Source: Planotetraspora phitsanulokensis
Lineage (GTDB): Bacteria > Actinomycetota > Actinomycetes > Streptosporangiales > Streptosporangiaceae
Length of the DNA: 64,000 nt
NCBI RefSeq assembly: GCF_016863295.1
Contig: NZ_BOOP01000028.1
Location: 62,001-126,000, forward strand
Direction of reading: 5' to 3'
In this document: in pieces, positions 11,015-31,530 of the stretch
Layout of the letters: each line of letters begins with the position of its first letter
Position numbering within the stretch: position 1 is the stretch's first letter
Program-made: the position numbers and the translations under genes
Notes under the pieces: generated by a model
The model's database searches: none
Told to the model about the DNA's origin: nothing
The model's input: the letters and a program-made list of their open reading frames with translations, nothing else

Positions 11015-11048
11015 CAGGCGATCCGCACGTCTCGAAAAGACGCGCACG

Positions 11049-11431
11049 TGGAGGTGGCGGGAATCGAACCCGCGTCCTTCAACACCAAGACAAGGCTTCT
11101 CCGGGCGCAGCCTGTTACGTTTTTCTCAGCCCCGGCAATCTCACAGGCGAGTCGCCGACGGGCTCAGTCACTGTTTGGTTTCCCGCTCGACCCCGTGACC
11201 GGGTCGGTCGGTTGAGCCTCCTAGCGATGTCAGATCCGGGCCGGAGGCGCTCCCGGGCTGACAGAGGTCACTCGCTGCTTAGGCGGCGAGAGCCAGGGAG
11301 TCCTGGCCGACCTCAGTGCGCATGTTATTGGCACTTATTGGTTTGCGGTCACAGTGTTAACGAGGTTATGTCCGCAGTCCTCGGCCCGCTTCCCTTGACT
11401 TGCAATGCCGAAGTCGAAACCGATCACCCCC
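11049..11431 (-). ncRNA. ssrA: tmRNA (SsrA)
   Basis: Transfer-messenger RNA that rescues stalled ribosomes with SmpB. The 5' end GGGGGTGATCGGTTTCGAC (from 11431) and the 3' end GGTTCGATTCCCGCCACCTCCA (to 11049; the T arm and acceptor strand) form a 7-bp acceptor stem, G1-G7 with CACCTCC at 11050-11056. CCA is not encoded. The resume region reads GCC AAT AAC ATG and ends in TAA, giving the tag ANNMRTEVGQDSLALAA, with the hydrophobic LALAA degron end. Length is 383 nt, normal for the family. smpB lies about 2.2 kb upstream on the same strand. Confidence 0.95.
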
Positions 11432-24249: not shown

Positions 24250-24318
24250 GCACCACTCCTTTGGTGGCGCACCATCTCCCGGTCCCCATTGACAGGAAGA
24301 GCGGCACCACCGCACCCG

Positions 24319-24347
24319 ATATCACCCGAAAAGGCCCCATACGTCAA
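24319..24347 (-). promoter_or_regulatory. Sigma-70-type promoter of kynA
   Basis: Minus-strand TTGACG (-35, 24342-24347), a 17-bp spacer, then TGATAT (-10, 24319-24324). It predicts a 5' leader of about 60 nt before the kynA ribosome site. It lies in the only gap between kynA and the anti-sigma gene. Confidence 0.5.
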
Positions 24348-24364
24348 CTTAACGTACAGGCGAC

Positions 24365-24562
24365 TCAGGGGCGGGTCCGCTCGGGGGACACGGAGTCAGC
24401 CTTGACCGCGTCGAGCATACCGGGAACGTCCTGGCTCTCCAGCAATTCCGACCGGCACTGCGCGCAGTCGTCGAGATGGCGCTCGAACGCCTCGACGTCG
24501 TCGTCATCGAGCACTCCAAGGGCATAGGCGGCCACATCGAAGTGTTCCGACGACGCGGACAT
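24365..24562 (-). CDS. Minimal zinc-binding anti-sigma factor (ZAS domain, 65 aa)
   Basis: 65 residues with the ZAS motif His29-x3-Cys33-x2-Cys36 (ERHLDDCAQC) plus His7. This domain wraps around ECF sigma factors and often responds to thiol oxidation. Unlike most relatives it has no transmembrane helix or sensor domain after the zinc site. The ATG overlaps the sigma factor stop by one base (TGATG), so they are cotranslated. Its role as the cognate anti-sigma is inferred from domain and position. Confidence 0.8.
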   Translation of the reverse strand: MSASSEHFDVAAYALGVLDDDDVEAFERHLDDCAQCRSELLESQDVPGMLDAVKADSVSPERTRP

Positions 24563-25128
24563 CAGCTGGCCACCCCCCTTTCCTTCAGTGCCGAGCGCAG
24601 AGCGCGCAGGGCATAGAAGAGCCTCGATTTCACGGTACCCGGCGGAATGCCCAGAATCTCAGCCGCTTCGCTTACCGTACGGTCCCGTAAGTATGTCTCT
24701 TCGATAACTTCTCGGTGCTGAGTGGACAGTCCGCGTAATGCGTCGGCGACCACGATCGCCGACAGTGTGCGGTCGGAGCCGTCCGGCACGGCGATGGTGT
24801 CCTCTTCCGGGGCCTCCACCTCTCTGGGGCGGACGCCCCGGCGCCGGCGCCCGTCGATCACGATGCGACGGGCCACGGTCAAGAGCCAGGCCCACAGGAG
24901 GCCGGGTTCCCAGGTCAGCTTCGCGGAGTTACGCCACGCGCGAACAAGCGTCTCCTGGACCACGTCCTCGGCCCATTGCAGGTCGTTTCCGGTCGTCTTC
25001 CGCACCTGACGCAGTAGCGGACCGCCGAACTCCTGATACAGCTCCCTGATCAGATGATCGTCCCGATCAGGGTCGCCGTAGGAGTCCTGACGCACGAACC
25101 GGCTGTCGAGTTGTCGACGCACGGGCAC
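24562..25128 (-). CDS. ECF sigma factor (SigL/SigK-like)
   Basis: 188 residues. Region 2 spans about residues 25-95 (EDVVQETLVRAWRN, core and -10 binding) and region 4 about 125-185 (LSTQHREVIEETYLRDRTVSEAA, then ILGIPPGTVKSRLFYALRAL, the -35 helix-turn-helix). A short acidic linker lies between. GTG 25128 is the furthest start and has no clear ribosome site; a start 6 or more codons later is possible. It pairs with the ZAS protein and is divergent from the DUF4142-DUF1996-cytochrome b-NuoF genes, likely targets by position. Confidence 0.88.
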   Translation of the reverse strand: MPVRRQLDSRFVRQDSYGDPDRDDHLIRELYQEFGGPLLRQVRKTTGNDLQWAEDVVQETLVRAWRNSAKLTWEPGLLWAWLLTVARRIVIDGRRRRGVRPREVEAPEEDTIAVPDGSDRTLSAIVVADALRGLSTQHREVIEETYLRDRTVSEAAEILGIPPGTVKSRLFYALRALRSALKERGVAS

Positions 25129-25174
25129 ATGTTTGCATCAGTTTTCCTCGCCTGTACTCGACTCCGCCAACTCC

Positions 25175-25188
25175 AGTCATTTCTGACT
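25175..25188. promoter_or_regulatory. Inverted repeat in the sigma factor/DUF4142 divergent promoter region
   Basis: AGTCA-TTTC-TGACT, a perfect 5-bp inverted repeat centred in the AT-richer 123-bp gap. It is 63 bp before the DUF4142 start and 47 bp before the sigma start. It may be an operator or part of a sigma-specific promoter. Confidence 0.35.
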
Positions 25189-25251
25189 ATTTCCTGAACC
25201 TCCCGCCACACCTCCGCGTACCTCCCACCGAAGGTCACGAAAGGAGGCACG

Positions 25252-25839
25252 ATGCGGTTCCGGTTTGGGGAACTCCTGGTGTTCGGCGTCTTCCTCTTCG
25301 CCGCGGCCATCGCCGTGGTCGTGGTCGTCCCTCGAGGTGAGGCGGCCCAGGCGGGTTGGACTCAGACGCAGTGGGGCCCCCTCAGCCCGGCCGACCGCGA
25401 CCTGCTCGTGCGGGTCCGGTGGGCAGGACTCTGGGAGATCCCCGCCGGCCGATGGGCCCAGGATCGCTCGAACAGCGACAAGGTCAAGGACGTCGGCATG
25501 CACCTGGTGACCGACCACACCAAGCTCGACGCCGAGGTGCGCGCCCTGGCCGACAAGCTCGGCGTCCTGTTGCCCAACGAGCCCAACCCCGATCAGCAGG
25601 GATGGCTCGACGAGATGTCGGGAGCCAGGGGACCCCAGTTCGACCAGATCTTCGTCGACCGGCTCAGAAACGCCCACGGCAAGGTCTTCGCGGTCGTCGC
25701 CGCCGTACGGGCGGGAACCCGAAACGATCTGGTCCGCGAATTCGCCACGACGGCGGTCAACGTCGTCATGAAGCACATGTCCCTACTGGAGAGCACAGGC
25801 CTCGTGGATTACTCCACGCTTCCCACTCCTACGGTCTAG
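25252..25839 (+). CDS. DUF4142-family secreted/membrane-anchored protein
   Basis: 195 residues. One N-terminal hydrophobic segment (LLVFGVFLFAAAIAVVVVV) is followed by a helical ferritin-like DUF4142 domain: LSPADRDLLVRVRWAGLWE, VKDVGMHLVTDHTKLDAEV with a conserved His, and a C-terminal MKHMSLLES helix. The domain should lie outside the membrane. ATG 25252 has AAAGGAGG 4 bases upstream. It is the first gene of the set facing the ECF sigma gene, 22 bp before the DUF1996 gene. The biochemical function of DUF4142 is not known to me. Confidence 0.85.
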   Translation: MRFRFGELLVFGVFLFAAAIAVVVVVPRGEAAQAGWTQTQWGPLSPADRDLLVRVRWAGLWEIPAGRWAQDRSNSDKVKDVGMHLVTDHTKLDAEVRALADKLGVLLPNEPNPDQQGWLDEMSGARGPQFDQIFVDRLRNAHGKVFAVVAAVRAGTRNDLVREFATTAVNVVMKHMSLLESTGLVDYSTLPTPTV

Positions 25840-25861
25840 TCAGGTTCAGGAGCTACCAAAC

Positions 25862-27109
25862 ATGCGAAAACGGCTGATGCTTGCCGGCGCCGCCCTCCTG
25901 CTGAGCAGCACGCTCGTGGGGCTCGACGTGCCCGCCGCCTCCGCCCACTGCGACCCCACGGCGCAGGGACACGAGTGCGAGGACGTCGGCCCCTTCCTGG
26001 AGGACTTCGTCGACATCCGGAAGGTCCCCCGCGGGAACACCGGCGTCGTCGCCGGTCGCGGGTCGTTCATCTCCCGCTGCGGCCGCAACGAGAACGGCCA
26101 TCACAACTCCGACAACCACATCGTCGCCCCCGGCGTGTCGAACGGCGCACACCACATCCACGACTACGTCGGCAACCTGACGACCAACGGGTTCTCCACG
26201 GACGAGAGCCTCGCCGCGGGCGGCACCACCTGCCGCCTGGGCGACAAGTCCACCTACTTCTGGCCGGTGCTGAGGAGCAGGACCGGAGAGACGGCCATCA
26301 AGAGCCGCGCGGAGGCGGAGGCCGCGGCTGCCGCGGCTGAGGCCGCCGAGGCTGAGGAGGCCGCGGCCGACGCGCCTCCCGCCACCGAGGCTCCGGCGGA
26401 CCCCGCGGCCGTCGAGGGCGCCGAGGCCTCGGCTGACCCCGCGGCGGCCGAGCCCGGCGCTCCGGATGACGCGACGACGTCGCCGGGCACCGAGGCGGAT
26501 CCGGCCGCCCCCGCCACAGGGGACGCGGCCCCGGCCCCCACCGCGTCGGCGTCGGCCCCAGCCCCGGCGGACCCGGGGCACGGCGCGGAGGGCAACGTCG
26601 GGACGATCCTCCTGCCGAAGGTCGTGACGCTGCAGTTCCGAGGCAACCGGTTCAGCCGGGTCGTGGCCATGCCGCGGTTCCTCCGGTTGATCACCGGTGA
26701 CGCCAAGTCCGCCACCAACGGACCCGCGAACGCCCGCGCCCAGTGGACCTGCTCGGGATTCACCAACCGCACCACCACCAAGTACCCCCTCTGCCCCAGA
26801 GGCAGCATGGTGATGCGGGTCCTGGACTTCCCGAGCTGCTGGGACGGCACGAACATCGACAGCGCCAACCACCGGACCCACGTCGTCTTCCCCGCCGCCA
26901 ACGGCCGGTGCGCCGCGGGGACCAAGGCGATCCCGCAGCTGCGCATGACACTCGGCTACTCGGTGCCGCGCGGCGCGTCGTTCGCCGTCGACGCCTTCCC
27001 CGAACAGCTGCACAACCCGATCACCGACCACGCCGACTTCGAGAACGTGATGCCGGCGCGCCTGATGAACACGGTCGTCAACTGCATCAACCGCGGGCGC
27101 CGCTGCTGA
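25862..27109 (+). CDS. DUF1996-domain secreted protein with a long Ala/Pro/Glu linker
   Basis: 415 residues with a cleaved signal peptide (AASA, about residue 28). The DUF1996 domain is split. Its first part holds SRCGRNENGHHNSDNHIV and NGAHHIHDYVGN with the His cluster 97-100. After TCRLGDKSTYFWPVL comes about 95 residues of low-complexity Ala/Glu/Pro sequence (149-245). The domain then resumes at KVVTLQFRGNRF and continues with DFPSCWDGTNID to the end. The His and Cys pattern suggests metal binding and disulfides (inference). It lies 22 bp after the DUF4142 gene, so both are probably cotranscribed. Function unknown. Confidence 0.85.
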   Translation: MRKRLMLAGAALLLSSTLVGLDVPAASAHCDPTAQGHECEDVGPFLEDFVDIRKVPRGNTGVVAGRGSFISRCGRNENGHHNSDNHIVAPGVSNGAHHIHDYVGNLTTNGFSTDESLAAGGTTCRLGDKSTYFWPVLRSRTGETAIKSRAEAEAAAAAAEAAEAEEAAADAPPATEAPADPAAVEGAEASADPAAAEPGAPDDATTSPGTEADPAAPATGDAAPAPTASASAPAPADPGHGAEGNVGTILLPKVVTLQFRGNRFSRVVAMPRFLRLITGDAKSATNGPANARAQWTCSGFTNRTTTKYPLCPRGSMVMRVLDFPSCWDGTNIDSANHRTHVVFPAANGRCAAGTKAIPQLRMTLGYSVPRGASFAVDAFPEQLHNPITDHADFENVMPARLMNTVVNCINRGRRC

Positions 27110-27133
27110 TCGCGCCACCCGGGAACCCAGGAC

Positions 27134-27191
27134 GTGCCGTTCCCCGTCCGATCCCTCGCGGTCCACCCCGCGTGAGGACGGGGAGCGGCAC
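27134..27191 (+). terminator. Long hairpin between the DUF1996 and cytochrome b genes
   Basis: 16-base arms (27134-27149 and 27176-27191) pair with a single T-G wobble, and an inner CTCGCGG/CCGCG stem extends the structure. It lies 24 bp after the DUF1996 stop and 95 bp before the next start. It may be a terminator or an attenuator that lowers expression of the downstream redox pair. Confidence 0.6.
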
Positions 27192-27286
27192 CCTTCCGCG
27201 TCCTGAGCCCCGCACCCCCGCGGCGACCTCGTCCCCCACCCCGAGATCGCCGGAACACCGATCACAGTTCTCCGACGGAGGAACCC

Positions 27287-28156
27287 TTGCCCCACCGACG
27301 GGCTCCACGGCACACCCGGCCAGACGAGGGTCTGGATCTCAACAACCCGGGCGTGCGCATAGGCCTGGGCGCCGCGGTCACCGTGGTCATGACCGGTGCG
27401 CTCTTCGCCGCCTACAACGGGATCGGCACACCGCTGCTGGACGCGGCCCAGTCCTTCCTCACCTACTACGCGGGTGTCATCTCCCTGGTCGCCCTCACCA
27501 CGACAGTCGCCCTCGGGCTCGCCGCCAGCGATCGCGTGGTGCTGCCGATCCCCCACCGCGTCCGCGCCCAGCTCGTGCACCGGGCCGCCGCCCTGATCGG
27601 CGTCGGCTTCCTGGTCACCCACATCGGCATGAAGATCGCCGCCGGGCTCGTCCCCGCGTACGGCTCGGTCCTGCCCAGCACCTCGCTGTACATCGGGATG
27701 GGCGCCCTGGCGTCCGACCTCATGATCGTCATCGTCGCGACGGGCGTGATGCGCGGCCGCTTCGCCCAGGCCGAACGCCCTTGGACGTGGCGGGTCCTGC
27801 ACGACCTCGCCTACCTGGCGTGGCCGCTGTCCATCCTCCACGGCCTCATGGCCGGGCGGACCCCGGCCGCATGGGTGAGCTGGAGCTACATGATCTGTCT
27901 CGTGGCCGCCGGCTCGGCCCTGCTGATCCGGGTCATGGCCGCCTTCCGGCCCGCCCTCGAGACGGGCGTGGCCGACGCCGTCGACATGACGCAGACGCAG
28001 CCGATGCCGCGTGCCGTACCCGAGTCGTCCCCGGAGCAGACTCCCCGGACGATGCCGGAGCCGGTTCCCCTGCTCGGCCGCACCGGCACGGACGCGACGC
28101 CGATCGGACGGGCGGCGCGCCGGTCACAGGACACCAGACTCCGGAGGATCGTGTGA
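27287..28156 (+). CDS. Ferric-reductase-like di-heme b membrane protein
   Basis: 289 residues with about six transmembrane helices (30-215) and a Pro/Thr-rich cytoplasmic-looking tail. Two His pairs fit bis-His heme ligation across a four-helix bundle: His98-x13-His112 (VHRAAALIGVGFLVTH) and His172-x12-His185 (LHDLAYLAWPLSILH), the spacing of ferric-reductase/NOX-type cytochromes. TTG 27287 has GGAGG 5 bases upstream. The stop overlaps the NuoF-like GTG by 4 bp, so the two proteins are made together. It probably carries electrons across the membrane from the NuoF-like partner; the final acceptor is unknown. Confidence 0.82.
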   Translation: MPHRRAPRHTRPDEGLDLNNPGVRIGLGAAVTVVMTGALFAAYNGIGTPLLDAAQSFLTYYAGVISLVALTTTVALGLAASDRVVLPIPHRVRAQLVHRAAALIGVGFLVTHIGMKIAAGLVPAYGSVLPSTSLYIGMGALASDLMIVIVATGVMRGRFAQAERPWTWRVLHDLAYLAWPLSILHGLMAGRTPAAWVSWSYMICLVAAGSALLIRVMAAFRPALETGVADAVDMTQTQPMPRAVPESSPEQTPRTMPEPVPLLGRTGTDATPIGRAARRSQDTRLRRIV

Positions 28157-29610
28157 TTCCCTACCGCGTGTCCCAGATCAGACGGCTCGGCCCCGCACGG
28201 CTCACGGCCGGGCTCGACCAGCATCGCCGGCTCGATCTCGACGCCCACCGCTCCATCCACGGCGAGCTCGGCACCGAGTCCGTCGACACGCTCATCTCGA
28301 TGGCGGAGGACGTCGACCTACGGGGGCGCGGCGGCGCGGCCTTCCCGTTCGCGCGCAAGCTGCGCGCGGTCGCCGCCCGCGCCCGCGACTCCGAGACCGT
28401 CGTGCTGGTCAACGGCGCCGAGGGCGAGCCCGCCAGCGTGAAGGACAAGATGCTGCTCACCCGGACTCCCCACCTCGTCCTCGAGGGCGCCCTGCTGGCG
28501 GCGGGCGCGCTCAACGCACGGCAGGTCGTGGTCGCGGTGGCCGCGGGCGACATGGCGGTGGCCTCCATGACGTCCGCCGTCGCCGAGCGGGGCGCCGAGG
28601 ACTCCGTCCGCGTCGCCGCCATCCCCGAACGGTTCATCTCGGGCGAGGGCGGCGCCCTCGTCAAGGCCGTGAACGGCCAGGCGGGCATCCCGCCCGGGCG
28701 CAAGGCCCGCTCCTCCGACAGCGGCGTGGACGGCCTGCCGACCCTGCTGTCGAACACCGAGACCTTCGCCCAGCTCGCCCTCCTCGGGGAGCTGGGCCCC
28801 GAGGTGTACGGCTCGGTGGGAACCGTACAGGAGCCGGGGACGATCCTGCTGACCGTCGGCGGCTCGGCCGTCTTCCCCGCCGTCGTCGAGGTCACGCCGG
28901 GTGTTCCCCTGGCCTCCGTACTCGACCTGTGCGAGGCGGCCGTCGGTGACGGCGTGCTGGTCGGGGGGTACCACGGCGCCTGGCTGTCGGCCGCCCAGGC
29001 GTACGGGGCCGTCGTGTCCCGCCGCGGCATCTCGCAGGCCGGCGGGTCCCTGGGCGCGGGCATCGTGGTGCCGCTCGGTGGCGAGACCTGCCCTCTCGGG
29101 GAGACCCTGCGCGTCGCGAACTACCTGGCCGCGCAGTCGTCGGGCCAGTGCGGGCCCTGCCGGCTCGGCCTGCCCGACCTCGCCCGCGCCGTGGCCGAGG
29201 TGTCGGGAGGCTCGACGCACGGCATCGAGCTCGTACGGCGGGCCGCCTCGGCCGTACGAGGGCGTGGGGCGTGTTCCCACCCCGACGGCTCGGCCCGGTT
29301 CGTCCTGTCGGCGCTCGAGGCGTTCGCCGACGACGTGGAGGAGCATCGCATCCACGGGACCTGCGGACGGCCGGTGCTCGAGATGTTGCCCCTCCCGGCC
29401 GCCGAGACGCGCGAGGCCGAGCTGATGGTCGACTGGTCGCGTTGCCAGGCCCACGGGCTCTGCGCGCACGTGGCTCCCGGGCTGGTCAAGCTCGACCAGC
29501 ACGGCTTCCCCGCCATCGAGGAGGGCGGCGTCCCCCCATGGCTGCGTGCCGAGGCCCGCAGAGCCGTTGAGATGTGCCCCGCCCTTGCCCTCCGCTTCCC
29601 CCCCGCGTGA
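28153..29610 (+). CDS. NuoF-like NAD(P)H-binding flavo-iron-sulfur protein fused to a 3Fe-4S-type ferredoxin
   Basis: 485 residues from GTG 28153. The FMN/NADH region has LRGRGGAAFP (56-65) and NGAEGEPASVKDKML (88-102), followed by an SLBB-like part. The NuoF cluster region reads SSGQCGPCRLG with Cys333, Cys336 and Cys374; the usual first Cys is Ser330. Residues 425-485 form a short ferredoxin with Cys431-x5-Cys437 and Cys475-Pro. It is not part of a complex I operon; it is coupled to a di-heme cytochrome b instead. Likely role: take electrons from NAD(P)H and pass them through its clusters to the membrane heme protein. The partner is inferred from the overlap. Confidence 0.82.
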   Translation: MIPYRVSQIRRLGPARLTAGLDQHRRLDLDAHRSIHGELGTESVDTLISMAEDVDLRGRGGAAFPFARKLRAVAARARDSETVVLVNGAEGEPASVKDKMLLTRTPHLVLEGALLAAGALNARQVVVAVAAGDMAVASMTSAVAERGAEDSVRVAAIPERFISGEGGALVKAVNGQAGIPPGRKARSSDSGVDGLPTLLSNTETFAQLALLGELGPEVYGSVGTVQEPGTILLTVGGSAVFPAVVEVTPGVPLASVLDLCEAAVGDGVLVGGYHGAWLSAAQAYGAVVSRRGISQAGGSLGAGIVVPLGGETCPLGETLRVANYLAAQSSGQCGPCRLGLPDLARAVAEVSGGSTHGIELVRRAASAVRGRGACSHPDGSARFVLSALEAFADDVEEHRIHGTCGRPVLEMLPLPAAETREAELMVDWSRCQAHGLCAHVAPGLVKLDQHGFPAIEEGGVPPWLRAEARRAVEMCPALALRFPPA

Positions 29611-31530
29611 TCAATCACGCCCGACGAAGTGACGCAGGACCTCCGGGTTGGCCATGGCGTCGGGGTTGGCGGCCTGCTCGACGGGCGTGCCGAGAAGGAT
29701 CTTCCGTACCGGGATCTCCAGCTTCTTGCCGGACAACGTCCGGGGGATGCCGGGGACCTCGTGGATCTCGTCGGGCACGTGCCTGGGGGACAGCTCGCTC
29801 CGCAGGGCCGTCCGGAGCCTGCCGACGAGATCGTCGGAGAACGTGCTCCCCTCGGCCAGCGTGACGTACAGCAGAAGCCGGCCCTCCTGGCCGAGCCGGC
29901 CGGTGTCGATCACCAGGCTGTCGGCGACCTCGTCGAACCGCTCCACGACGCGGTAGAACTCGCTGGTGCCCATCCGGACGCCGCCCCGGTTGAGGGTCGA
30001 GTCGGACCGGCCGTAGATCACGCAGCTTCCGTCGGCGTCGAGCTTGATCCAGTCGCCGTGCCGCCAGACGCCCGGATAGTCGGCGAAGTACGACTCGCGG
30101 TACCGGTCGCCTGACGGGTCGTTCCAGAACATGACCGGCATCGAGGGCATGGGCTGCGTCACCACGAGCTCGCCCACCTCGCCGATCACGGACGCACCGG
30201 ACGGGTCGAACGACTCGACCTTCGCGCCGAGGCACCGGCACGGGATCACGCCCGCCCTGACCGGCAACGACGGCACCCCGCCCACGAAGCCCGTGCAGAC
30301 GTCCGTGCCGCCGGAGAACGACCCGAGCTGGACGTCGGCCTTGACGTCGGAGTAGACCCAGGCGAACCCCTCCGGGGGCAGCGGAGATCCGGTCGAGCCG
30401 ATCCCCCGCAGCCGCTCCAGGCCCGTCGGCCGCAACCCCGCCTTCATCGAGGCGACGATGTACGGCGCGCCCGTGCCGAAGTAGGTGACCCCCTCCTCGT
30501 CCGCCAGCCGCCACAGGGCGTCGGGCCCGGGATGGGCCGCGCTGCCGTCGTAAAGAACGACGGTGGCGCCCACGAGGAGGCCGCCGATGAGGTAGTTCCA
30601 CATCATCCAGCCGGTCGTGGTGTACCAGAAGAACACATCCTCGTCGCCCAGGTCCTGGTGGAAGGAGAGCGACTTCAGGTGCTCGAGCACGATCCCGCCG
30701 TGCCCGTGCACGATGGGCTTGGGCAGGCCGGTCGTCCCCGACGAGTACAGCACCCACAGCGGGTGCCCGAACGGAACCGGCTCGAACGTGAGCTCGCCGG
30801 CCTCGCCGTGGAGGTCGTCCCAGCTCAGGTCACCTTCGGGCGCGGGCGCCTCGGCGTCCAGGTAGGGGATCCACACGGTCGCGGCGAGGGTGGGCAGCTT
30901 GGCCGCGATCTCGCGGACGACGCCCGAGCGGTCGAAGGCCTTGCCGCCGTACCGGTACCCGTCGACCGCGATGAGCACCTTGGGCTCGATCTGGGTGAAC
31001 CGGTCGATGACGCTCGGCGCGCCGAAGTCCGGCGAGCACGAGGACCAGATCGCCCCCAGCGAGGCGGTGGCCAGGAAGGCGATCAGCGCCTCGGGGATGT
31101 TGGGGACGTACGCCGCCACCCGGTCGCCGCGCCCCACGCCGAGCCTCTCCAGCCCGCCGCGCACCCTGCCGACCTCGTCGCGCAGTCGCCCGCGCGTGTA
31201 CGTCCGCCGATTTCCCGCTTCATCGCGAAAAATCACGGCAAGGTGGTCGGCGTCGCCACGCAGGGCGTTTGCGGCGTAATTGACCGAGGCTCCGGCGAAC
31301 CATTGGACGTCCGGCATCGTTCCACTGATGACGGGCCCGTCACCACGCTCCCCCACGACGCCGAAGTAGTCCCACACCGACGTCCAGAAGTCGGCCGGAC
31401 GGTCGACCGACCACTTCCACACGTCCTCGTACGTCCCGGACCGGCCGAGCCAGTCCGCGAAGCGAGTCACCCGGGCGTCACGGACGATCTCCGGCGTGGG
31501 TTCCCAGAGCAGAGCGCCTTCCTCAACCAT
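29611..31530 (-). CDS. Acetoacetyl-CoA synthetase
   Basis: 639 residues. ATP-dependent adenylate-forming enzyme converting acetoacetate and CoA to acetoacetyl-CoA. Landmarks are LWEPTPEIVRDARVTRFADW at the N-terminus, the adenylation loop VLYSSGTTGLPKPIVH, FWYTTTGWMMWN, and the C-terminal RHVPDEIHEVPGIPRTLSGK with the catalytic Lys. ATG 31530 has AAGGA 7 bases upstream; an upstream in-frame extension to 31578 is not supported. Its TGA abuts the NuoF-like stop directly (TGATCA at 29608-29613). Confidence 0.93.
   Translation of the reverse strand: MVEEGALLWEPTPEIVRDARVTRFADWLGRSGTYEDVWKWSVDRPADFWTSVWDYFGVVGERGDGPVISGTMPDVQWFAGASVNYAANALRGDADHLAVIFRDEAGNRRTYTRGRLRDEVGRVRGGLERLGVGRGDRVAAYVPNIPEALIAFLATASLGAIWSSCSPDFGAPSVIDRFTQIEPKVLIAVDGYRYGGKAFDRSGVVREIAAKLPTLAATVWIPYLDAEAPAPEGDLSWDDLHGEAGELTFEPVPFGHPLWVLYSSGTTGLPKPIVHGHGGIVLEHLKSLSFHQDLGDEDVFFWYTTTGWMMWNYLIGGLLVGATVVLYDGSAAHPGPDALWRLADEEGVTYFGTGAPYIVASMKAGLRPTGLERLRGIGSTGSPLPPEGFAWVYSDVKADVQLGSFSGGTDVCTGFVGGVPSLPVRAGVIPCRCLGAKVESFDPSGASVIGEVGELVVTQPMPSMPVMFWNDPSGDRYRESYFADYPGVWRHGDWIKLDADGSCVIYGRSDSTLNRGGVRMGTSEFYRVVERFDEVADSLVIDTGRLGQEGRLLLYVTLAEGSTFSDDLVGRLRTALRSELSPRHVPDEIHEVPGIPRTLSGKKLEIPVRKILLGTPVEQAANPDAMANPEVLRHFVGRD

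Follow-up and report, generated by a model that had tools for sequence, protein, structure and literature searches.

The divergent sigma-factor locus and its proteins

A 64,000-nucleotide stretch of contig NZ_BOOP01000028.1 of Planotetraspora phitsanulokensis (genome size 9.17 Mb), hereafter the window, contains an extracytoplasmic function (ECF) sigma factor gene and a zinc anti-sigma (ZAS) gene that face four genes for a DUF4142 protein, a DUF1996 protein, a membrane protein, and a NuoF module fused to a ferredoxin. All six genes were confirmed at the coordinates and in the families given by an initial annotation. The SigL-like sigma factor (24562-25128, minus strand; 188 residues) comprises Sigma70 regions 2 and 4, and its best match among solved structures is SigL of Mycobacterium tuberculosis (E = 1.4e-29). 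It scores 191 bits, below the cut-off of 202, against the NCBIfam model PRK09645, which we take to be the one named SigL. The anti-sigma factor (24365-24562, minus strand; 65 residues; zf-HC2, E = 8e-7) carries the zinc motif H...HxxxCxxC (H7, H29, C33, and C36, counting Met as 1), the ligands of which are invariant in 8 of 8 aligned homologs. No hydrophobic helix was found in it (best 19-residue hydropathy 0.54), and its relatives at three loci (L045, L052, and L165) have a long extra C-terminal part. Together, the Sigma70 regions, the zf-HC2 match, and the zinc motif support the proposed ZAS-type pair. SigU of Streptomyces coelicolor was also considered, without a decision: SCO0930 is listed in the SigU regulon (PMC6295645; here and below, statements on cited papers refer to the parts of their text that were available), and the Lipoprotein_15 protein found at related loci matches the NCBIfam lipoprotein model named after SCO0930, below its cut-off.

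On the plus strand, the DUF4142 gene (25252-25839; 195 residues; PF13628, E = 2.4e-24) is followed by the DUF1996 gene (25862-27109; 415 residues; PF09362, E = 6.9e-22). The DUF4142 protein starts with a hydrophobic helix (hydropathy 3.18 at residue 8) and is predicted to be exported; E62, H89, H142, H175, and E180 are invariant in 10 of 10 sequences. The DUF1996 protein has a signal-like N-terminal stretch and an Ala/Pro-rich insert at about residues 145-240, and over 24 sequences it retains H98, H100, H340, H384, and H390 as well as C73, C124, C297, C311, C326, and C350. Its structure model (mean pLDDT 58.6) is too poor to weigh a role as electron acceptor, and no usable fold match was found for it. 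Sequence searches for solved relatives returned none for DUF4142 or Lipoprotein_15 and none credible for DUF1996, and no role is assigned in the libraries searched to DUF4142, DUF1996, Lipoprotein_15, TIGR03118, or the c22 lipoproteins, a family described below. Genome G016 has one DUF1996 gene that looks broken, with two overlapping match pieces (G016:C2:2280427-2280977), and a further copy at 5722377-5723261. Three DUF4142 matches lie within one frame of about 680 codons in two genomes (G031:C27:121613-123295 and G016:C2:5123080-5124810), and two lie within one frame in G034.

The membrane gene (27287-28156, plus strand; 289 residues, TTG start) overlaps the NuoF-ferredoxin gene by 4 bp. Its product had been described as a di-heme-type protein. 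Four histidines, H98, H112, H172, and H185, show no variation in two overlapping sets of aligned homologs (19 of 19 and 30 of 30, the larger set consisting of 29 of 33 proteins shorter than 420 residues plus the window protein). The structure model has six long helices, and the protein looks like a short-form ferric-reductase-domain (FRD) cytochrome b. The generic di-heme alternative was set aside, since DUF4405 matches only below threshold (E = 0.38) and FRD fits better. The histidine pairs are spaced by 14 (H98/H112) and 13 (H172/H185) residues on model helices 88-118 and 165-188 (transmembrane helices TM3 and TM5), which equals the spacing of the NOX2 heme ligands His101/115 and His209/222 (PMC3591440), and by analogy with NOX2, hemes are expected at H98/H172 on the inner and H112/H185 on the outer side. 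Pfam PF01794 (Ferric_reduct) matches 12 of the 30 homologs (E up to 0.1, best 5.7e-5), with no match found in the window protein itself. In Foldseek, the top four matches were the NADPH oxidase (NOX) of Streptococcus pneumoniae, SpNOX (8qta and 8qt6), STEAP4, and STEAP1, with probabilities of 0.95-1.00. The TM3 histidine specific to NOX proteins, 4 residues past the outer ligand, is K116 in the window protein; no histidine occupies this position in the 19 or 30 homologs, and all 30 of the larger set have K, M, Q, or E there.

The last gene (28153-29610, plus strand; 485 residues) encodes both the flavin mononucleotide (FMN) domain and the NADH_4Fe-4S domain of NuoF (PF01512 and PF10589; Complex1_51K, E = 6e-33; NADH_4Fe-4S, E = 2e-16), followed by a ferredoxin tail (Fer4_15, E = 3e-13). 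Solved relatives of the NuoF module include HydB and NuoF (63 sequences with E up to 0.001, best 7e-33). The tail contains C431-xx-H434-xx-C437 and C475-P; the CxxHxxC pattern was found in 98 of 119 family members, with histidine as the variable residue in 98 of 98, and ferredoxins with CxxHxxC(X)nCP have been isolated as [3Fe-4S] proteins (PMC6237146). The protein scores 162 bits against the complex I equivalog TIGR01959 (cut-off 559), and no other Nuo genes lie beside the set in the window, the neighbors in other genomes not having been profiled for Nuo. Taken together, the NuoF-ferredoxin protein and the invariant FRD-type histidine pairs make the proposed transmembrane path from NADH to heme plausible.

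Conservation and gene order

The best 80 NuoF matches were taken as named loci, with about 9 kb on each side and less at contig ends. At 78 of the 80, the membrane gene lies directly upstream of the NuoF gene on the same strand, and at 65 the two overlap. DUF4142 was found at 24 of these loci, DUF1996 at 23, both at 22, and the sigma gene at 12; the home-made gene caller used misses the sigma gene at some loci (e.g., L044, where a profile search finds it). The loci with DUF4142 belong to Planotetraspora, Acrocarpospora, Herbidospora, Nonomuraea, Sphaerisporangium, Thermocatellispora, Actinomadura, Dactylosporangium, and Nocardiopsis; the closest named NuoF among the matches listed, from Planotetraspora kaengkrachanensis, is 96% identical. 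Neighborhoods were also taken from 38 NuoF matches, chosen mostly, but not strictly, by score, plus the window. Gene order varies between loci. In the window-type order, the sigma gene is divergent from DUF4142-DUF1996-membrane-NuoF. In Actinomadura the order is M23-like gene, membrane, NuoF, DUF4142, DUF1996, with no sigma gene seen at the locus, and in Dactylosporangium it is NuoF, sigma, Lipoprotein_15, DUF4142. A quick NuoF tree with long branches (leaving out L033, L035, L037, L039, and short proteins) requires 5 label changes for the linkage (at least 4 of them forced) compared with a mean of 29.7 after shuffling.

Furthermore, a DUF4142 ortholog (at least 180 bits) is present in 15 of the 60 genomes compared, including that of the window, and all 15 are among the 20 genomes with a NuoF-ferredoxin protein of at least 518 bits (Fisher test 3e-10, ignoring kinship and with thresholds set after viewing the lists). 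On a 223-kb Streptomyces plasmid, genes for DUF1996, Lipoprotein_15, c22, the membrane protein, and NuoF are consecutive (L235:1361-9434); a DUF4142 gene starts about 2.6 kb past this block, genes for a histidine kinase and a response regulator lie upstream, and three further plasmid records gave similar matches. Thus, the neighborhood is conserved beyond close strains, in nine named genera with rearranged order as well as on the plasmid. ApbE is absent among the scanned window genes, and no FMN-binding domain was matched in the eight window proteins scanned. ApbE was tested in 14 of the 15 genomes with a DUF4142 ortholog, occurring elsewhere in 10, including the window's own, and in none of G012, G016, G025, and G034. 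It does stand beside some distant pairs, as read in the eight-member cluster c9 and confirmed by profile at L057 and L061.

Several additional arrangements of the membrane-NuoF pair were observed. The window's genome has a second pair (L032; G000:C9:314364-316582), with a NuoF 58% identical to that of the window; it is preceded by an M23-like gene of cluster c17, and a c22 lipoprotein gene with the promoter motif described below follows about 3.5 kb further on. In G025, an RRXRR/HNH-type gene (L055:10102-11556), presumably IscB-like, was read between the membrane and NuoF genes. On Streptomyces contigs L226-L234, the pair adjoins a gene of about 930-970 codons, with neither DUF4142 nor the motif found; at the similar locus L056, the corresponding gene reads like leuS. 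In the window, the set is flanked by genes for a Trp dioxygenase and an AMP-binding enzyme, and at a greater distance lie a raiA RNA (RF03072; 53113-53365, minus strand; 148 bits, E = 7e-37) and a transfer-messenger RNA gene (11046-11431, minus strand).

The predicted promoter and its wider regulon

A predicted ECF promoter, TGAACC-N16-CGTA (25195-25220, plus strand), lies 57 bp before the DUF4142 start. We take TGAACC to be the -35 word of M. tuberculosis SigL, although it was not found in the papers examined. The CGTA end was fixed on related loci, and a longer spacer was taken from G005, a relative of the Actinomadura loci. Within 150 bp before DUF4142 or a linked Lipoprotein_15 gene, the motif is present at 23 of the 24 DUF4142 loci, the only miss being Dactylosporangium; three of the 24 (L155, L166, and L225) are contigs already used in narrowing the motif, and the Actinomadura loci, all 9 of which are positive, played no part in defining it. 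The other 56 loci yielded 2 near-gene sites, one of them before a c22 gene. Overall, the real words gave 37 matches, 25 near a gene and 23 before DUF4142 or Lipoprotein_15, whereas 40 scrambled word pairs gave means of 4.6 matches and 0.2 near a gene (at most 2), and none before these two families.

At the genome level, 15 sites were found in the window's genome compared with 4 for a reversed control, and across 13 genomes 220 compared with 48. Among the matches listed, 30 places were taken as loci and about 40 were chosen by hand; matches within genes were set aside, as was TGAACCTGTCCGG[GA]TAATGCCGGCGTA before transporters, which looks like what we take to be the end of a thiamine pyrophosphate riboswitch. 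In the window's genome, sites precede genes for DUF4142, a DUF305 lipoprotein, a c22 lipoprotein, and a membrane protein with a weak Sulfatase match, and a secreted Rieske protein is encoded behind a site in three genomes of the window's genus. The families recognized in this way were next followed by homology. For c22, 15 of 21 places have the strict motif, but the motif had already led to 12 of them; it stands at 3 of the 9 found otherwise, one of them sharing a neighbor's site. The c22 family occurs in 14 of the 60 genomes, 13 of them with a DUF4142 ortholog, and on the plasmid the c22 protein ends in a tail rich in histidine. For TIGR03118, 7 of 12 places have the strict motif (two of the 12 being pieces of one gene), as do 4 of the 9 not known before.

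The DUF305 loci (30, with L285 left out because of its 18 upstream bases) have the strict motif in 6 of 12 cases in genomes with a DUF4142 ortholog, 5 of them known before. Allowing any sixth base, a variant chosen after viewing the matches, this rises to 10 of 12, compared with 0 of 17 in genomes lacking the ortholog. The contrast (p = 0.002 strict, 3e-6 with any sixth base) is confounded, as the set without the ortholog contains more distant DUF305 proteins and the motif had led to the query in the first place. The DUF305 member matches CopM structures (5ffa, E = 2.7e-12) and DUF4142 (1e-10) and scores 64.7 bits against the NCBIfam CopM model (cut-off 90). Moreover, in one genome a P1B-type ATPase gene (L147:1619-3499) begins 123 bp behind a site. 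In such ATPases DKTGT and CPC are expected; here they are replaced by NKTGT and SPR, so the protein is probably not an active pump.

Whether the sigma factor also controls the membrane-NuoF pair is less clear. The initial annotation had proposed that the set may be induced by redox stress and had suggested looking for a shared motif upstream of 25252 and 27287. The first site exists in strict form, and sigma control of DUF4142-DUF1996 is likely; no strict site was found upstream of 27287. A loose scan gave GGAACC-N17-CGTC at 27122-27148 (plus strand), within a hairpin region, and another loose word at 27252; both have counterparts in P. kaengkrachanensis (L155) and were taken for chance, although 27122 could be a weak ECF-like site. 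The gap at 27107-27290 folds at -83.8 kcal/mol (z = -4.7; a value reached by none of 200 shuffled sequences), and a 70-nucleotide strong hairpin within it (27130-27199, plus strand; -47.4 kcal/mol, no U-tract) is a possible terminator or attenuator. The P. kaengkrachanensis gap folds at -93.5 over 181 nucleotides; relatives with gaps of 48-82 nucleotides fold at -10.6 to -40.8, and their operons therefore look closer-knit. A scan of 24300-29800 for sigma-70 promoters and U-tract terminators found nothing. In Actinomadura, Sphaerisporangium, Nocardiopsis, and Dactylosporangium, the pair is not downstream of the motif, and sigma control of it is therefore not general. We conclude that such control is plausible in window-type loci and unproven in general.

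A putative redox-controlled electron conduit and its known relatives

We consider it on balance probable that the surface proteins are under a SigL/RslA-like redox switch and travel together with an electron conduit that resembles MsrQ and NOX and is driven by NuoF. By analogy with RslA, in which oxidation creates a disulfide, releases zinc, and weakens binding to SigL (PMC2877774), the ZAS partner would sense oxidation, and the released sigma factor would fire the predicted promoters. The exported products would be the DUF4142 and DUF1996 proteins at this locus and, elsewhere in the genome or in relatives, c22, DUF305/CopM-like, Lipoprotein_15, TIGR03118, and Rieske proteins. Protein anatomy suggests the electron path: NAD(P)H would reduce the FMN and Fe-S centers of the NuoF part, and electrons would pass to the [3Fe-4S]-type ferredoxin domain and leave the cell across the two b hemes of the FRD protein. 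The least certain step is the last one, in which they probably hold surface proteins bearing metals or thiols, or the bound metals, in the reduced state. The window's pair may share a transcript with DUF4142-DUF1996, with the hairpin perhaps acting as an attenuator. The fuller proposal, a NOX/STEAP-like conduit driven by a complex-I-like NuoF subunit and a P450-type [3Fe-4S] ferredoxin, independent of flavinylation and feeding DUF4142, DUF305, c22, and DUF1996 proteins under one redox ECF sigma factor, is tentative; if true, four families that are so far unexplained would gain functions together. The shared promoter word and the linked electron source make the functions of such role-less families testable, and the arrangement suggests a way in which NuoF, a component of complex I, can be redeployed to power an FRD cytochrome that has no flavodehydrogenase fused to it.

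Several observations weigh against this interpretation, every support for which is drawn from sequence. The motif was first noticed by eye, in the window, before being narrowed on related loci, and it is tied to this sigma factor by association, among 48 matches to the sigma factor in the genome. In the same genome, 6 of the 15 sites lie inside genes and some others precede unrelated genes (mfd-like at 185 bp, dehydrogenase-like, transporter). Furthermore, TIGR03118 genes bear the motif in G017 and G040, which have no DUF4142 ortholog, so related sigma factors may use similar sites. Only 12 of the 24 DUF4142 loci have the membrane gene immediately after DUF1996 in the same orientation, the pair lies upstream of the motif at the 9 Actinomadura loci and apart from it at three others, and no strict site was found before 27287. 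The plasmid block lacks the motif and, by profile search, the sigma gene. As for the proteins, the Foldseek E-values are only 0.003-0.07 and the TM-scores 0.27-0.41, unrelated membrane proteins (oxidase subunits) follow at probabilities of 0.92 and below, and the first of the four usual cluster cysteines of NuoF is absent (S330 in the window; Ala in 100, Ser in 17, and unmatched in 2 of the 119 family members).

A metalloreductase, which would reduce Cu(II) or Fe(III) on DUF4142, DUF305/CopM-like, and His-rich c22 proteins to Cu(I) or Fe(II) in the manner of Fre or STEAP and so serve uptake or detoxification, is a sharper form of the conduit reading and overlaps with it in probability; in itself it appears possible rather than probable. 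A metal role is favored by the similarity of the DUF305 member to CopM and DUF4142, the histidine-rich tail of c22 on the plasmid, and the absence in 30 of 30 homologs of the TM3 histidine that marks NADPH oxidases (PMC3591440), to which the P1B-type ATPase gene behind a motif site adds a point. However, the latter is a single case with a probably inactive product, DUF1996 mutants of fungi show sensitivity to several metals and stresses, copper not being among them (PMC4738358), and no metal uptake gene was recognized on reading the locus, no profile search having been made for one.

Alternatively, a DUF4142-DUF1996 unit under ECF control and a membrane-NuoF pair unrelated to it could be coincidental neighbors that share a locus by descent. 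This would agree with the absence of DUF4142 from 56 of the best 80 loci with the pair, the differing promoter relation in Actinomadura, and the hairpin that parts the two units in the window; we gave it additional weight because much of the c22 and DUF305 support came through the motif itself. Nevertheless, we regard it as rather unlikely, since the linkage persists with altered gene order in several lineages at far fewer changes than after shuffling, the NuoF-ferredoxin protein accompanies the DUF4142 ortholog in 15 of 15 genomes, and the genes are co-located on the Streptomyces plasmid. It is likewise unlikely that the pair serves MsrQ-like repair, passing electrons, possibly from menaquinol instead of NADH, to an envelope methionine sulfoxide or disulfide reductase encoded elsewhere. 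MsrQ is a characterized bacterial short FRD protein (PMC8238504), and a ZAS redox switch would suit oxidative damage, but no MsrP, Dsb, or thioredoxin gene was recognized among the neighbors and motif targets read, which were not profile-searched for them. Least convincing is a NOX-like producer of superoxide that hands electrons to outside oxygen, which is quite improbable given the missing NOX-specific TM3 histidine, even though SpNOX heads the Foldseek matches and all four heme histidines are present.

The locus resembles several known systems in part. Like SigL-RslA of M. tuberculosis (PMC2877774, PMC6372665), it has a ZAS anti-sigma factor with CxxC, and SigL is the sigma factor's best match among solved structures; SigL controls secreted or membrane proteins, according to the title of a cited paper. 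However, RslA is membrane-associated, whereas the anti-sigma factor here has no hydrophobic helix; the -10 word is CGTG in the SigL scaffold and CGTA here; and the targets are not the same. NADPH oxidases and bacterial long-form FRD proteins, including SpNOX, resemble the membrane protein in the four heme histidines at NOX2 spacing (PMC3591440) and, weakly, as top fold matches, but the NOX-specific TM3 histidine is missing here, and a separate NuoF-ferredoxin protein takes the place of their fused FAD/NADPH domain. According to the same source, most short FRD proteins retain two or three of the four histidines, whereas the window protein retains all of them. The CopM/DUF305 metallochaperones are matched by a predicted regulon member, encoded elsewhere in the genome, for which metal binding is putative.

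Also related are flavinylation gene clusters with MsrQ-like (PF01794) proteins. In the literature searched, with subscription journals mostly outside it, no publication was recognized as describing the present gene combination, but the initial statement that no such system has been described was too strong: 31 flavinylation clusters with an FRD protein and a NuoF-like partner (PF10589) have been reported, broadly in Actinobacteria, and use of NAD(P)H has been proposed for them (eLife 2021, PMC8238504). Those clusters were collected by their flavinylation genes, whereas the locus described here is without ApbE, and, as far as the available text goes, their outer partners and promoter are not those seen here.

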